A stretch of 64,000 nucleotides of DNA, taken from contig NZ_VFMM01000003.1 in assembly GCF_006715085.1 (NCBI RefSeq), positions 372,001-436,000 on the forward strand. Reading direction: 5' to 3'. Source of the DNA: Kribbella jejuensis (GTDB lineage Bacteria > Actinomycetota > Actinomycetes > Propionibacteriales > Kribbellaceae). Position numbers and translations under genes: made by a program. Below, piece by piece: positions 21,242-26,499 of the stretch (its first letter is position 1; each line of letters begins with the position of its first letter). The notes beneath the pieces are model-generated. The model ran no database searches. It had not been told where the DNA came from and saw nothing but the letters and a program-made list of their open reading frames with translations.

Positions 21242-21966
21242 CGGCAGAACTCACCAGGCACGAGGACCTGCCGCGCACCGACGACCTGCCGCCCCTGCCG
21301 TACCGCCTCGCGCTGCCGATGCGGTACATCGCCCGGCCGTACTTCCGGCACAAGTACAACCTGACCATCCACCACGAGGACCGGTTCCCGCGGACCGGTC
21401 CGTTGCTGATGACACCGAACCACCTGAGCCTGCTGGACGCCCCGCTGCTCGGCGCGATGGCGCCGCGGATGCTGCACCAGCTCGGCAAGGTCGAGGTGTT
21501 CGGCGGCGTACAGGGCAAGTTCCTGCACCGGATCGGCCAGATCCCGGTCGACCGGTCGTCGTACGACATGCTCGCGGTCCGGAAGTCGATCAAGGTACTG
21601 CGGGACGGACGGGTGCTGAACATCTACCCCGAGGGCACCCGCGGGCCGGGCGATTTCAGCCGGATCCGGATCGGGGTGGCCTACCTGGCGATGGTCACCG
21701 GCGCGCCGATCCTGCCGGTGGCGCTGATGGGAACCCGCTTGCCGGCCGGTAGTGTGGAGGGTCATCCACCGGCCGGGAGCCGGATCGACATCGTGTACGG
21801 CGAGCCGTTCTCCGTGGACCGCGTACCCTTTCCCAGGAGACATACCGACGTACAGGCGGTCGCCGACCACATCGGCGACGTGCTGCGCGCCCACGTGAAG
21901 GCGGCCGTCGAAGAAACCGGCCACCCACTTCCGGGCTGGCGAGACCAGAAGGACCCTGATGACTGA
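21238..21966 (+). CDS. 1-acyl-glycerol-3-phosphate acyltransferase family protein (PlsC-like)
   Basis: This 242-residue membrane-associated acyltransferase has the catalytic NHLSLLD (His62, Asp67; the NHx4D motif) and EGTR (131-134), which binds the phosphate of the acceptor. It probably acylates lysophosphatidate or a related glycerolipid in phospholipid synthesis. The N-terminus lacks a long hydrophobic anchor, so association may be peripheral. It overlaps cmk by 4 nt and der by 8 nt, indicating tight coupling. The exact acceptor is not determined by sequence. Confidence 0.9.
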
Positions 21967-23326
21967 CCTGCCCACCGAACTACCGACGCACGACCGTGAG
22001 GACACCGGGCCGCTGCCCGTGCTCGCGATCGTCGGCCGGCCGAACGTGGGCAAGTCCACGCTGGTCAACCGGATCATCGGCCGCCGCGAGGCGGTCGTCG
22101 AGGACACCCCGGGCGTCACCCGCGACCGCGTCTCGTACGACGCCAACTGGGCCGGCCGCGAGTTCACCGTCGTCGACACCGGCGGCTGGGACCCGGACGC
22201 GGTCGGGATGGCCGCTCTGGTCGCGGCGCAGGCCGAGGTCGCGATCAACGCCGCCGACGCGGTGCTGTTCGTGGTCGATGCGGTGGTCGGCATCACCGAC
22301 GCCGACGAGGCCGTCGTCCGGGTGCTGCGGAAGTCCGGCAAGCCCGTCGTACTGGCCGCCAACAAGGTCGACGACCAGCGGATCGAGTCCGAGGCGATGA
22401 ACCTGTGGAGCCTTGGGATCGGCGAGCCGTTCCCGGTGTCCGCGATGCACGGGCGCGGCACCGGCGACATGCTGGACGCCGTACTCGCGGCCCTCCCGGA
22501 GGCGCCCGCGGAGCGCGACGGCGAGGTCGGGGGACCGCGCCGGATCGCGATCGTCGGCAAGCCGAACGTGGGCAAGTCGTCGCTGCTGAACAAGGTCGCC
22601 AAGGAGGACCGGGTCGTCGTCAGCGACGTCGCCGGGACGACGGTCGACCCGGTCGACGAGCTGATCACGCTGAGCGGCAAGGAGTACCGGTTCATCGACA
22701 CCGCCGGGATCCGGCGCAAGGTCAAGAACGCCTCCGGCCACGAGTACTACGCGTCGCTGCGGACCAACGCCGCGATCGAGCGGGCCGAGGTCGTCGTGGT
22801 GGTGATCGACTCGTCCGAATCGATCACCGAGCAGGACCTGCGGATCATGAACGCGGTCGAGGAAGCCGGCAAGGCGCTGGTGATCGCGTACAACAAGTGG
22901 GACCTGATGGACGACGAGCGCCGCTACTACCTGGAGCGCGAGATCGACCGCGACCTGGTCCAGTTCCGCTGGGCCCCGCGGGTCAACATCAGCGCACTCA
23001 CCGGCTGGCACATGGACAAGCTCGTCCCGGCCATCGAAGCCGCGCTGGAGGGCTGGCAGACCCGCGTCCCGACCGGCCAGCTGAACGCCTTCCTGGGCCG
23101 CCTGGTCGCCGCCCACCCGCACCCGGTCCGCTCCGGAAAGCAACCGAAGATCCTGTTCGGCACCCAGGCCACCACCATGCCGCCGACCTTCGCGATCTTC
23201 ACCTCCGGCCAGATCGAACCCTCCTACCAACGCTTCATAGAACGCCGCCTCCGCGAAGACTTCGGCTTCGTCGGCAGCCCCGTCCACGTCCAGATCCGCC
23301 CCCGCCAAAAGAACAAGAAACGCTGA
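21959..23326 (+). CDS. der: Ribosome biogenesis GTPase Der (EngA)
   Basis: This 455-residue protein has two consecutive GTPase domains and a KH-like C-terminal domain and acts in 50S subunit maturation. The first P-loop is GRPNVGKS (26-33) with DTGG and NKVD; the second is GKPNVGKSS (about 200) with DTAG and NKWD. The C-terminal segment (about 375-455) ends in RPRQKNKKR, as expected. It is the last gene of the cmk operon, 70 nt before tRNA-Pro. Confidence 0.97.
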
Positions 23327-23396
23327 CCCAGCCCGGTGAGAACCACTCCCCGGAATGCTGTAAGGTTTACCCCGGTTCGCTGTTGGGGCGGACCAT

Positions 23397-23470
23397 CGGG
23401 CTGTGGCGTAGTTTGGTAACGCGTTCGGCTGGGGGCCGAAAGATCGCAGGTTCAAATCCTGTCAGCCCGA
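23397..23470 (+). tRNA. tRNA-Pro (anticodon GGG)
   Basis: A complete 74-nt cloverleaf. The acceptor CGGGCTG (23397-23403) pairs with CAGCCCG (23463-23469) and A23470 is the discriminator base. The anticodon stem TTCGG/CCGAA encloses CTGGGGG, with GGG at positions 34-36. The T-arm GCAGG/CCTGT carries TTCAAAT. There is no intron and no encoded CCA. TAAGGT (23361-23366) may be its -10 box. Confidence 0.96.
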
Positions 23471-23476
23471 CCCTTC

Positions 23477-23507
23477 AGAGGGACACCGAAACTGTCGGTG
23501 TCCCTCT
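23477..23507 (+). terminator. Intrinsic terminator of tRNA-Pro
   Basis: A perfect 13-bp stem (23477-23489 with 23495-23507) with a 5-nt loop, followed by TTTACGTTT. It begins 6 nt after the tRNA. It is the only terminator in this window with a T-rich tail. Confidence 0.88.
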
Positions 23508-23520
23508 TTACGTTTCTCCC

Positions 23521-24417
23521 ATGAGTACACCTGGGGATCGACGGAGCTGGAACGACGACCAACTGCGGCAGGCGGTGGAGAGCAGCCCGTCGTGGCGTGC
23601 GGTCGCTCGCGCACTGGGGTTGAAGAACACCTCCACGGGACCGATCAGGCGGCACGCAGCGCGGCTCGAGCTGGACACGTCGCACTTCACAGGACAGCGT
23701 CGGTGGTCCGATCAGCAGTTGCGTGAAGCTGTGGCAGCGGCCAGTTGCTGGGCGAACGTGCTGGCCAGCCTGCGCATTGTCGATACCGGAGAAGAGCGGG
23801 TCAGGATCAAGGGCCACGCCGTCCGACTGGGCTTGGACTGCAGTCATCTGAAGTCGCCACTGGCCCAGCCGACGCCGACCGAGGTATTCGACGAGCCGGT
23901 TAGGCCCGAGATGCTTCGCTACTCGGCCACAGCGTTGGCGATGGCCTGGTTCACGTTGCGCGGATGTGCGGTTGCGCTGCCGATCGAACCACAGGAGTAC
24001 GACCTGTTGGTGACGACGTCGAAGGGCATCCAACGAGTCCAGGTGAAGTCGTGCGCGTCTCGCAACAAGCGCGGCTATTGGGAAGTTGGCATCGGCCGAC
24101 GTCCCTACGTTCTCGACAAGTCCGCGAGCAAGATGCCGTACGACCCCGACACGATCGACGCGTTCTTCATCCTTCTCGGCGATGGCGGAATCTACGTGAT
24201 CCCCAGCTCGGTGTTGGCCGGCCGGGTCCGCATCTCGGCGGAGAGCTACACCCCGTACCGCGTGGGTGATGCGTCCAGCCTGCTCGGTGGGGCGCCGGTG
24301 GAGACCGGCGCCCCGCGGCGGGTGTCAGCGTACGCCGGTGAGTTCGTCGGTCCGAGGTTCCTCCGGGATCCTCAGGGTTTCGCCTTCGATGTCTACTCGG
24401 GGGGTGAGGCGGTCTAG
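23521..24417 (+). CDS. PD-(D/E)XK protein resembling I-Ssp6803I-type endonucleases, with two DNA-binding repeats
   Basis: This 298-residue protein has two tandem repeats of about 50 residues (9-56 and 61-110) of the kind often fused to homing nucleases: SWNDDQLRQAV, then LGL, then LELDTSHF, and RWSDQQLREAV, then LGLDCSHL. Residues 130-235 carry EYDLLVTTSKGIQRVQVKS, a PD-(D/E)XK core with Asp161 and Gln174-x-Lys176. That QxK variant is the form I recall for I-Ssp6803I (group I intron-type PDDEXK family). The gene starts 50 nt after tRNA-Pro, is less GC-biased than its neighbours, and overlaps the 3' end of the convergent MMPL gene by 93 nt. The longer upstream open frame lies within der and is not coding. 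Function (homing, defence or repair) is inferred only. Confidence 0.75.
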   Translation: MSTPGDRRSWNDDQLRQAVESSPSWRAVARALGLKNTSTGPIRRHAARLELDTSHFTGQRRWSDQQLREAVAAASCWANVLASLRIVDTGEERVRIKGHAVRLGLDCSHLKSPLAQPTPTEVFDEPVRPEMLRYSATALAMAWFTLRGCAVALPIEPQEYDLLVTTSKGIQRVQVKSCASRNKRGYWEVGIGRRPYVLDKSASKMPYDPDTIDAFFILLGDGGIYVIPSSVLAGRVRISAESYTPYRVGDASSLLGGAPVETGAPRRVSAYAGEFVGPRFLRDPQGFAFDVYSGGEAV

Positions 24418-26499
24418 CCACTTCGGGAACCACCACGCTCGGTCGCCGAGGAGGCTGAGGATGGCGGGGACGAGCGTCATCCGGACGACGAACGCGTCGA
24501 TCAGCACGCCGATCGTGAGACCGAAGCCGATCGCCTTGATGATCGGGTCGTGGACGAGGATGAAGCCGGCGAAGACCGACGCCATGATCAGCGCGGCGGC
24601 GGTGACGACGCGCGCCCCGTGGCCGAGGCCTTGGACGGTGGCGTCGTTCGCGTGCTTGCCGTGTACGAACTCCTCGCGGACGCGCGACACGATGAACACC
24701 TCGTAGTCCATCGCGAGCCCGAACAGGATGCCCATCATGATGATCGGCAGGAAGCTCACCAGCGGACCGGGGGAGTCGACGCCGACGAGCTTCGCCAGGT
24801 GACCCTGCTGGAAGACCGCGACCGTGATCCCGAACGTCGCCCCGATCGTCAGCACGAACCCGAGCGTCGCCTTCAACGGCACGAGCACGGACCGGAACGC
24901 CAGCAGGAGCAGCAGGAACGACAACCCGATCACCACGAACAGGTACGTCGGCAACGCGTCGGACAGCTTGTTCGACACGTCCACCCCGACGGCGGTGTTA
25001 CCGGTCACCGAGATCTCGGTGCTGCCGGTGGCGAGCGGCTTGATCGCCGACCGCAGGTTCTTGACGAGCTCAGCGGTCTGCTCGCTGGCCGGCCCGCTCT
25101 TGGGAATCACCTGCACCAACCGCGTCGTACCGTCCTGACTGGCCGCGGCCGGCTGCGCCGCAACCACATCGGTCAGCCCCTGCGTCTTGCCCAGCACCTG
25201 CTGCGCCACACCATTGGCCGTCGCCGCGTCGTTGCTCTTCACAACGACCACGAGCGGCCCGTTGGCGCCCGGCCCGAAGGCCGCCGCGGTCAGGTCGTAC
25301 GCGACCCGCTGGTTCGTACCGGCCGCCGCCGACGCACCGTCCGGCAAGGCCAGCTGCATGTCCTTCGCCGGAATCGCGAGCAGCCCGAGCCCGATGATGC
25401 CGACCGCAACGATCGGCACCCGCAACCGGGTCACCAACCGGCCCCACCGGAAACCGAACCCTTCCAGCGGTACGACAGCGGTCGGCGCCTTGCGCAACTT
25501 CCGCGGCAGCACCCGGTTCCCGACGAACCCGAGCAGCGCCGGCAGCAACGTCAACGCGACCAGCACGGCGGTCAGCACCGTCGCCGCCGCGGCCAGCCCC
25601 ATCGCGGTCAGGAACGGTACGCCGACCACCGACAGCCCCGCGAGCGCGATCACCACGGTGGCCCCCGCGAACAACACCGCCGACCCGGCCGTCGCCGTCG
25701 CCCGCGCGACCGACTCCTCCGGATCCATGCCCTCGCTGAGCTGCGACCGGTGCCGCGAGCTGATGAACAGCGAGTAGTCGATCCCGACCGCGAGCCCCAG
25801 CATCAACGCGAGGATCGGAGCCGTCGACGACACGTCGGTGAACGCGGTCACGATGAACAACCCAGCCATGCCGGCGAGGACGCCGAGCAGCGCCGTCACG
25901 AGCGTCATTCCGGCGGCGACCAACGATCCGAACGTGACGACCAGTACGACGGCCGCGACCGCGACGCCGATCACCTCGGTCGCACCGATCTCCGGGACTC
26001 CGGCCTTGATCTGCCCGCCCGGTACCACCTTGAGGTCACCGTTGCTCAGTCCGCTGAGTCCGTCGTACCCGTCGCTGCTCGCGTGCGAGAGTTCGTCGGC
26101 CGGCTTGTCGAACTGGACGCTGATCAGTCCGGTCCGGCCGTCCGGGCTGATCGCCTTGCTCATGAACGGGTCGATCGCCGCGATCACCTCCGGCACCTTC
26201 GCGACCTTGGCGACGGTGACACCGACGGCGGCCTTCACCGTCGGATCGGCGAGCGTCTTGCCCTCCGGAGCCTGTACGACGACCGTCGCGGACGCACCGC
26301 TGGCAGCGGGCAGCTCCTGCTTGAGGGCGTCGAGTGCCCGCTGCGACTCGGTACCCGGGATCGAGAACGTGTTCGCGGTCTTGCCGCCCAGCGTCAGCGC
26401 GCCGACTCCGAGCACCACCAGGAACAGCGCCCACAGCGCGGCGACGAGGCGCCTGCGCTGGTAGGAGAACCGGCCGAGCCGGTAGAGCAGATTGGCCAT
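24325..26499 (-). CDS. MMPL/RND-family exporter
   Basis: This 724-residue membrane protein has about 12 transmembrane helices in two halves, each with a large extracytoplasmic loop after the first helix (about 45-185 and 395-530). It matches MmpL/YdfJ-like lipid or drug exporters: GIDYSLFISSRHRSQL and FGLAMDYEVFIVSRVREEF are the paired proton-relay helices, and WWFPKWLDRLTPRVDIEGE is the typical tail. It lies 76 nt downstream of a TetR gene on the same strand and is presumably repressed by that protein. The last 93 nt overlap the convergent nuclease-like gene. The substrate is unknown. Confidence 0.92.
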   Translation of the reverse strand: MANLLYRLGRFSYQRRRLVAALWALFLVVLGVGALTLGGKTANTFSIPGTESQRALDALKQELPAASGASATVVVQAPEGKTLADPTVKAAVGVTVAKVAKVPEVIAAIDPFMSKAISPDGRTGLISVQFDKPADELSHASSDGYDGLSGLSNGDLKVVPGGQIKAGVPEIGATEVIGVAVAAVVLVVTFGSLVAAGMTLVTALLGVLAGMAGLFIVTAFTDVSSTAPILALMLGLAVGIDYSLFISSRHRSQLSEGMDPEESVARATATAGSAVLFAGATVVIALAGLSVVGVPFLTAMGLAAAATVLTAVLVALTLLPALLGFVGNRVLPRKLRKAPTAVVPLEGFGFRWGRLVTRLRVPIVAVGIIGLGLLAIPAKDMQLALPDGASAAAGTNQRVAYDLTAAAFGPGANGPLVVVVKSNDAATANGVAQQVLGKTQGLTDVVAAQPAAASQDGTTRLVQVIPKSGPASEQTAELVKNLRSAIKPLATGSTEISVTGNTAVGVDVSNKLSDALPTYLFVVIGLSFLLLLLAFRSVLVPLKATLGFVLTIGATFGITVAVFQQGHLAKLVGVDSPGPLVSFLPIIMMGILFGLAMDYEVFIVSRVREEFVHGKHANDATVQGLGHGARVVTAAALIMASVFAGFILVHDPIIKAIGFGLTIGVLIDAFVVRMTLVPAILSLLGDRAWWFPKWLDRLTPRVDIEGETLRIPEEPRTDELTGVR

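Follow-up and report, generated by a model that had tools for sequence, protein, structure and literature searches.

The closest described enzyme is I-Ssp6803I, which, in the available part of the source, is encoded in an intron of the tRNA-fMet gene of Synechocystis (PMC1995217); a study of its specificity cited there names the anticodon region in its title. Phages provide known examples of free-standing endonucleases and of intronless homing, according to the excerpts available (PMC2988022, PMC13096335, PMC3984707). Two of these excerpts place segB of phage T4 between tRNA genes, list a tRNA intergenic region as its target and describe intronless homing with co-conversion (PMC2988022, PMC13096335). 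HNH genes found within mycobacterial tRNA clusters are thought to be phage-derived, as stated in the excerpted parts of two further papers (PMC6582537, PMC9569102).

The Kribbella nuclease considered here resembles each of these in part. I-Ssp6803I is its best fold match and, on the excerpted account, both belong to a tRNA gene context. Unlike I-Ssp6803I, the Kribbella gene has no intron and lies outside the tRNA, its product has two added N-terminal repeats, its partner is tRNA-Pro(GGG), and a recoded tRNA stands where the other system has an interrupted site. With SegB it shares the free-standing state and, from the excerpts, the neighborhood of tRNA genes. SegB, however, is a GIY-YIG enzyme and phage-borne, whereas the Kribbella enzyme is of the PD-(D/E)XK type and chromosomal; the excerpts mention no recoded tRNA for SegB. 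The mycobacterial arrays likewise keep nuclease genes among tRNAs, and a phage HNH family, phrog_10822, matches the Kribbella repeats, but those arrays are accessory clusters as far as the excerpts describe them, whereas in Kribbella one nuclease adjoins a core chromosomal tRNA that is recoded. Searches of the literature outside most subscription journals, partly in excerpt, found nothing on chromosomal PD-(D/E)XK genes that pair with a recoded core tRNA.

The nuclease gene behind tRNA-Pro(GGG)

The locus lies in the window (the whole 64-kb stretch of DNA that was analyzed) and comprises the following features:

21959-23326, upstream of tRNA-Pro: der, a two-domain GTPase with an EngA KH-like domain
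23396-23473, plus strand: intact, intron-less tRNA-Pro(GGG) (ARAGORN; Rfam tRNA at 23397-23470, 66 bits), a recoded allele and the proposed target
23477-23507, plus strand: 13-bp hairpin followed by a T-rich stretch, the probable tRNA terminator (fold -24.9 kcal/mol)
23509-23514, plus strand: TANNNT -10-like box starting 12 nt 5' of the ATG, a probable leaderless promoter of the nuclease
23521-24417, plus strand: free-standing PD-(D/E)XK nuclease gene, 298 aa, ATG start (ORF, Pfam, fold match)
23545-23694, plus strand: putative DNA-binding repeat 1, about residues 9-58 (phrog_10822; modeled helices)
23695-23856, plus strand: putative DNA-binding repeat 2, about residues 59-112 (alignment, model, phrog_10822)
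23911-24270, plus strand: PD-(D/E)XK core, about residues 131-250, D161...Q174xK176 (PF11645; 2OST; invariant columns)
24295-24417, plus strand: C-terminal extension, pLDDT below 50 from residue 256; 24325-24417 is antisense to the end of the MMPL gene
24325-26499, minus strand: MMPL transporter gene, convergent, downstream of the nuclease

The tRNA is the only one that ARAGORN finds in the window, and the nuclease ORF starts 47 nt behind its end as given by ARAGORN, or 50 nt behind that given by Rfam. Rfam gave no group I intron match between 20000 and 28000 at E up to 1. The first-pass annotation had placed the gene directly 3' of an intact, intron-less tRNA-Pro, and this description holds. 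Since the tRNA is intact and no intron is matched, the nuclease is not classed with the group I intron-encoded PD-(D/E)XK enzymes; it is a gene of its own beside a conserved gene, in neither an intron nor an intein. Elsewhere in the same genome, the segment G000:C1:2639737-2642570 has dense tRNA matches, some of them weak, and looks like an accessory tRNA array.

Hairpins comparable to the probable terminator were seen by eye at other Kribbella loci, with and without the nuclease. A TANNNT box stands at -12/-13 from the ATG in 19 of the 20 Kribbella nuclease loci and a Shine-Dalgarno-like motif is absent, so that expression is probably leaderless. The box was found in none of the 18 nuclease-free Kribbella loci when a 35-nt segment 3' of the tRNA was searched.

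From the letters alone the protein had been described as two DNA-binding repeats joined to a PD-(D/E)XK core of the QxK variant, and structure prediction and HMM searches bear this out. PF11645 (PDDEXK_5) matches residues 137-229 (E 5.1e-7, 30.2 bits against a cut-off of 26.1) and is matched by all 16 aligned members, among which D161, Q174 and K176 are invariant; the core with its D...QxK residues is that of I-Ssp6803I-type enzymes. An AlphaFold2 model (mean pLDDT 76.8, pTM 0.48) has helical N-terminal repeats and an alpha/beta core. The top solved structure returned for it by Foldseek is 2OST, I-Ssp6803I (E 3.6e-6), and VIA-align superposes the two with Z 13.7 and rmsd 3.2 over 123 residues, the next entry reaching Z 10.1. 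A search of PDB proteins by sequence returned nothing at E up to 10. The repeats match the phage HNH endonuclease family phrog_10822 in two stretches (E 3e-17), and the core matches a second phage protein family.

The ORF usually ends near residue 255-262, and an extension is found in 8 of the 20 Kribbella copies. The copy in the window has about 40 added C-terminal residues, largely antisense to the end of the MMPL gene.

Distribution and turnover of the nuclease

Comparison of the der-tRNA-MMPL region among relatives revealed a patchy gene. The nuclease is present in 20 of 38 Kribbella genomes and all 21 loci are at tRNA-Pro(GGG); a DNA query spanning the der end and the tRNA matches all 38 genomes, some in the tRNA part only. 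Eighteen of the 20 copies are uninterrupted through the core, one has an internal deletion (G005) and one is a remnant (G036). On the der tree, presence of the nuclease requires 7 changes, against 12.9 with shuffled labels.

The linkage to tRNA genes extends beyond the genus. In a class-wide sample PF11645 was found in 16 of 394 genomes, and each of the 15 other loci scanned has a tRNA within its 1.5-kb flank (8 Pro-GGG, 6 Arg-UCU, 1 Val-GAC), L107, the second piece of the L096 gene, having been left out of the scan. Rfam matched no group I intron in 15 related loci. The PF11645 hit L104, which is below the family cut-off and about 0.8 kb from a tRNA-Val, looks unrelated. Among named genome records, all 33 nuclease relatives returned, together with one viral contig, are at tRNA-Pro(GGG). 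The tRNA is within 665 nt of the match in 34 of 34 loci, within 60 nt in 21 and on the same strand in 32; for a random gene in the window's genome, the expectation within 500 bp is about 1.4%. The hosts are Kribbella, Phytoactinopolyspora, Mycobacterium/Mycolicibacterium, Gordonia, Nocardioides, Arthrobacter, Demequina, Tessaracoccus, Krasilnikoviella, Cellulosimicrobium, Aeromicrobium, an Acidobacteria MAG, a Streptosporangiaceae MAG and a record titled Streptomyces. A search for a plasmid vector of the nuclease gave no match.

Relatives of the parts are found beside other tRNAs. In Nocardioides, 16 single-repeat proteins (L368-L383) all lie beside tRNA-Leu(UAG) or tRNA-Leu(UAA), directly upstream, and the four UAA cases overlap the start of the tRNA. 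Seven were tested against Pfam, and six of these match an HNH model (E up to 0.001), four of them above its cut-off; the genome of one single-repeat protein also carries the full nuclease. The anticodon stems of the adjoining tRNA-Leu(UAG) genes vary among the Nocardioides loci. Short PDDEXK_5 proteins without repeats stand beside tRNA-Arg(UCU), mostly divergent (L092-L097, L316, L327, L329, L330, L340, L354), and several such copies in the Mycobacterium set are decayed. Phage matches are partial: the core in phages Wilder and Kahlid, the repeat in an uncultured phage. In Wilder the PDDEXK_5-like ‘hypothetical protein’ (L454 3965-4375) is directly flanked by tRNA-Gly and tRNA-Lys within a tRNA array, and in the uncultured 485-kb phage the repeat protein (L455 3001-3315) adjoins five tRNA-Leu genes with different anticodons. 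On the viral contig at tRNA-Pro(GGG) (L239 176-2557), a phage integrase (Pfam), the tRNA and the nuclease follow in a row at the end of 109 kb. Given the Nocardioides and phage cases, tRNA adjacency seems to go with the repeat and core families as a whole rather than with one gene.

The protein is maintained, as the median dN/dS is 0.20 (128 of 153 pairs with usable dS; the other 25, with dS above 1.5 or undefined, were dropped) and 0.16 in the core. The gene is also far more diverged than its flanks. Median dS is 1.21 for the nuclease, 0.50 for MMPL and 0.32 for der, and nuclease dS exceeds MMPL dS in 78 of 78 pairs, drawn from the 13 genomes in which MMPL is the downstream gene. GC3 is 0.80 in the nuclease, 0.95 in der and 0.92 in MMPL. 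Weaker codon bias could account for part of the excess in dS. The ratio is not constant (nuclease against MMPL dS is 0.15 and 0.13 for G023/G025, 0.93 and 0.14 for G023/G029), which points to replacement of the nuclease rather than to codon bias alone. The replacement was probably horizontal, to judge from dS. Nuclease and der distances correlate (r 0.41; 0.66 without G033).

These comparisons bear on the age of the element. The first-pass annotation took low GC bias and the overlap with the next gene as signs of a recent arrival. The lower GC3 stands, and the overlap is real (24325-24417), but the latter says little about age because it falls in the extension with pLDDT below 50 and that extension is found in only 8 of the 20 copies. 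Across Kribbella the tRNA-Pro locus appears from sequence comparison to have been occupied, replaced and lost repeatedly, and a recent arrival is supported only in part. Patchiness at one site, with decay and replacement outpacing the flanks, is the pattern of free-standing homing genes. A PDDEXK match is present, the gene is absent from many relatives and it has diverged beyond its neighbors; the lack of such a match, or conservation in all relatives at the divergence of the neighbors, would have told against a homing nuclease.

Could the enzyme instead be a domesticated host nuclease with a cellular role, lost in some lineages, for which the tRNA is a convenient site of transcription? Purifying selection, the correlation with der and the conserved -10 box are in keeping with such a role, but it sits badly with presence in 20 of 38 genomes, with the decayed copies in G005 and G036, with divergence far above the flanks and with the same tRNA partner across many genera, and it leaves the tRNA recoding unexplained. 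We regard domestication as improbable, and as less likely than a homing element.

Recoding of tRNA-Pro(GGG)

Genes for tRNAs are among the most constrained genes. Across 38 Kribbella genomes, however, tRNA-Pro(GGG) varies in 34 of 73 columns, with 22 haplotypes and 13.7 differences on average, against 3 variable columns, 3 haplotypes and 1.1 differences for the control tRNA-Pro(CGG) (the CGG locus of G003 was excluded from the GGG set). In further controls, tRNA-Phe and tRNA-Glu have no variable column and tRNA-Asp has 1 (29 of 30 loci, one having no in-range tRNA); tRNA-Pro(GGG) in the 30 genomes of that comparison varies in 32 of 72.

The changes preserve the fold. Twelve of 21 cloverleaf pairs have changed on both sides, 99.8% of cells remain paired (shuffled mean 83.1%) and the covariation score is 0.49, against 0.16 when shuffled, a value as high being reached in 0 of 500 shuffles; further pair types are no more numerous than in the shuffles. 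Changes affect 5 of 5 pairs in the anticodon stem, 4 of 5 in the T-stem, 2 of 4 in the D-stem and 1 of 7 in the acceptor stem. The altered region runs from the D-arm through the T-arm and is centered on the anticodon, which is also what the title of the I-Ssp6803I specificity study names.

Recoding is associated with carriage of the nuclease among close relatives. Where der nucleotide identity exceeds 0.95, the tRNAs are identical in 7 of 7 nuclease-free pairs and in 0 of 11 pairs with a carrier, although the pairs overlap and so are dependent, and a single clade of four supplies six of the seven that are identical. The mean number of tRNA differences in these pairs is 17.7 with one carrier (n = 3) and 11.5 with two (n = 8). 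Much less contrast remains at der identity of 0.93-0.95. There the mean number of differences is 9.0 for nuclease-free pairs, 15.0 with one carrier and 11.8 with two, and the tRNAs are identical in 2 of 11, 2 of 11 and 0 of 9 pairs, respectively. Nuclease-free lineages with differing tRNAs may be past carriers.

A nuclease and a tRNA allele traveling together within Kribbella, in contrast, are not supported. With der removed, tRNA and nuclease distances are unrelated (partial Mantel r 0.06, p 0.25; without G033, r -0.06, p 0.73). The tRNA distance follows der weakly (r 0.24, p 0.016), and distant lineages can have the same tRNA allele. Between G023 and G025 the nuclease is near-vertical (dS 0.15), but the tRNAs are 11 changes apart. 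Exact recoded segments of the two alleles searched were not found in viral contigs.

The association reappears in a Mycobacterium set of 148 genomes, the genus being assigned from G445, whose nuclease matches that of M. pinniadriaticum at 100% identity over 234 residues. A rare anticodon-stem allele of tRNA-Pro(GGG) (C30-G40) is present in 14 of the 148. Protein searches gave nuclease matches in nine genomes, seven of them strong, and six of the seven are in rare-allele genomes (Fisher p 1.5e-6, kinship ignored); the seventh is a 61-residue remnant at a common-allele tRNA (G251). Weak single-repeat matches near tRNA-Leu(UAA) in G555 and G459 were excluded from the count. Eight rare-allele genomes lack a strong match: one retains an N-terminal remnant (E 8e-10), three have the spacer of the element, recognized by eye, and weak C-terminal matches (E 5e-5 to 5e-3), and four have no credible nuclease trace. 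Eighteen other loci were checked, two of which end at contig ends; in the remaining 16 no match fell below E 0.001, and the top one, repeat-like and 36 residues long, lies 1.2 kb away in G514.

Two further comparisons carry less weight. For tRNA-Arg(UCU) in the Mycobacterium set, nuclease genes or remnants occur at 9 of 49 loci, all nine with a CCGCC-type anticodon stem; as an independent replicate this counts for little because that stem is also present at most of the other tRNA-Arg loci, without the nuclease, and kinship is ignored. In a Nocardioides set, so assigned because G631 has the N. litoris tRNA allele and a strong match to the nuclease query set, which includes the N. litoris protein, a profile search marked 18 of 147 genomes, three with full nucleases at tRNA-Pro(GGG). 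Two of these three have alleles that are singletons among 72 loci, which were chosen by similarity and by hand and so are not random, and the third has an allele common to nine nuclease-free loci. Nocardioides is thus a weak replicate of the link between carriage and allele.

It could be argued that tRNA-Pro(GGG) diversifies by some other route, such as a tRNA-cleaving toxin or exchange with phage tRNAs, and that the nuclease is a passenger that prefers tRNA flanks. The tRNA type does not track the nuclease type in Kribbella, Mycobacterium has recoded alleles without the nuclease, and beyond the closest pairs nuclease-free genomes differ as well. The passenger explanation fails to account for the closest pairs, identical in tRNA when nuclease-free and not when a carrier is involved, and for the nuclease-allele association in Mycobacterium, and we give it little credence.

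Probable homing at the tRNA gene

We prefer, and think likely, a free-standing homing endonuclease that targets the tRNA-Pro(GGG) gene, in a host with a resistant, recoded tRNA of its own. Of the two options raised at first pass, this is the homing element that is directed at the tRNA locus and needs no intron. It best accommodates the fold, the linkage to tRNA-Pro(GGG), the patchiness and the recoding.

Homing might proceed as follows. The repeats and the PD-(D/E)XK core would most likely recognize and cut the tRNA-Pro(GGG) gene of alleles that have no nuclease gene, most likely in the stretch from D-arm to T-arm that surrounds the anticodon. Repair of the break by recombination with a carrier locus would introduce the nuclease and sometimes also the tRNA. 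Carriers would survive because their own tRNA is recoded: exchange of stem pairs alters the DNA site, and the RNA would still fold and keep its acceptor stem and anticodon. Once the recoded allele is common, the nuclease would decay and be lost, leaving the recoded tRNA as a scar. The lack of a Mantel link, the G023/G025 pair, the ordinary allele of one Nocardioides carrier and the recoded alleles with no nuclease trace lead us to prefer, over a fixed nuclease-tRNA cassette, a model in which pressure from the nuclease speeds turnover of the tRNA by recombination.

Genes for tRNAs are also frequent att sites, and the nuclease might guard the one at tRNA-Pro(GGG) by cutting incoming integrative elements with a copy of the tRNA as their att site, recoding being an escape from both the elements and the nuclease. 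The integrase directly before tRNA-Pro and the nuclease on the viral contig L239 suits such a guard. The recoding, however, extends to the D-arm; this belongs to the 5' half and would be untouched by att exchange at the 3' half. In addition, none of the 16 members matches a defense model. We therefore judge a guarding role to be unlikely. A known anti-phage defense system was rejected, as none of the PADLOC-DB 2023 models matched any of the 16 nuclease members at E up to 0.01.

Homing at tRNA-Pro(GGG) may be one case of something wider. We put forward, with somewhat less than even confidence, that swappable PD-(D/E)XK and HNH nucleases with one common DNA-binding repeat constitute a natural cleave-and-rescue drive in bacterial chromosomes. 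Each would target a particular core tRNA (Pro-GGG, Leu-UAG, Leu-UAA and, for the short form without repeats, Arg-UCU) and would spread with, or select for, resistant recoded tRNAs, with fast tRNA evolution and scars after loss as the outcome.

In closing, a locus kept in an arms race by a nuclease would, if the proposal is true, explain how a tRNA gene can be hypervariable within a genus. It would also exemplify intronless homing at a core gene in bacteria and provide a natural series of tRNA alleles from which target specificity could be read out. The finding bears on how I-Ssp6803I-like enzymes live without an intron.
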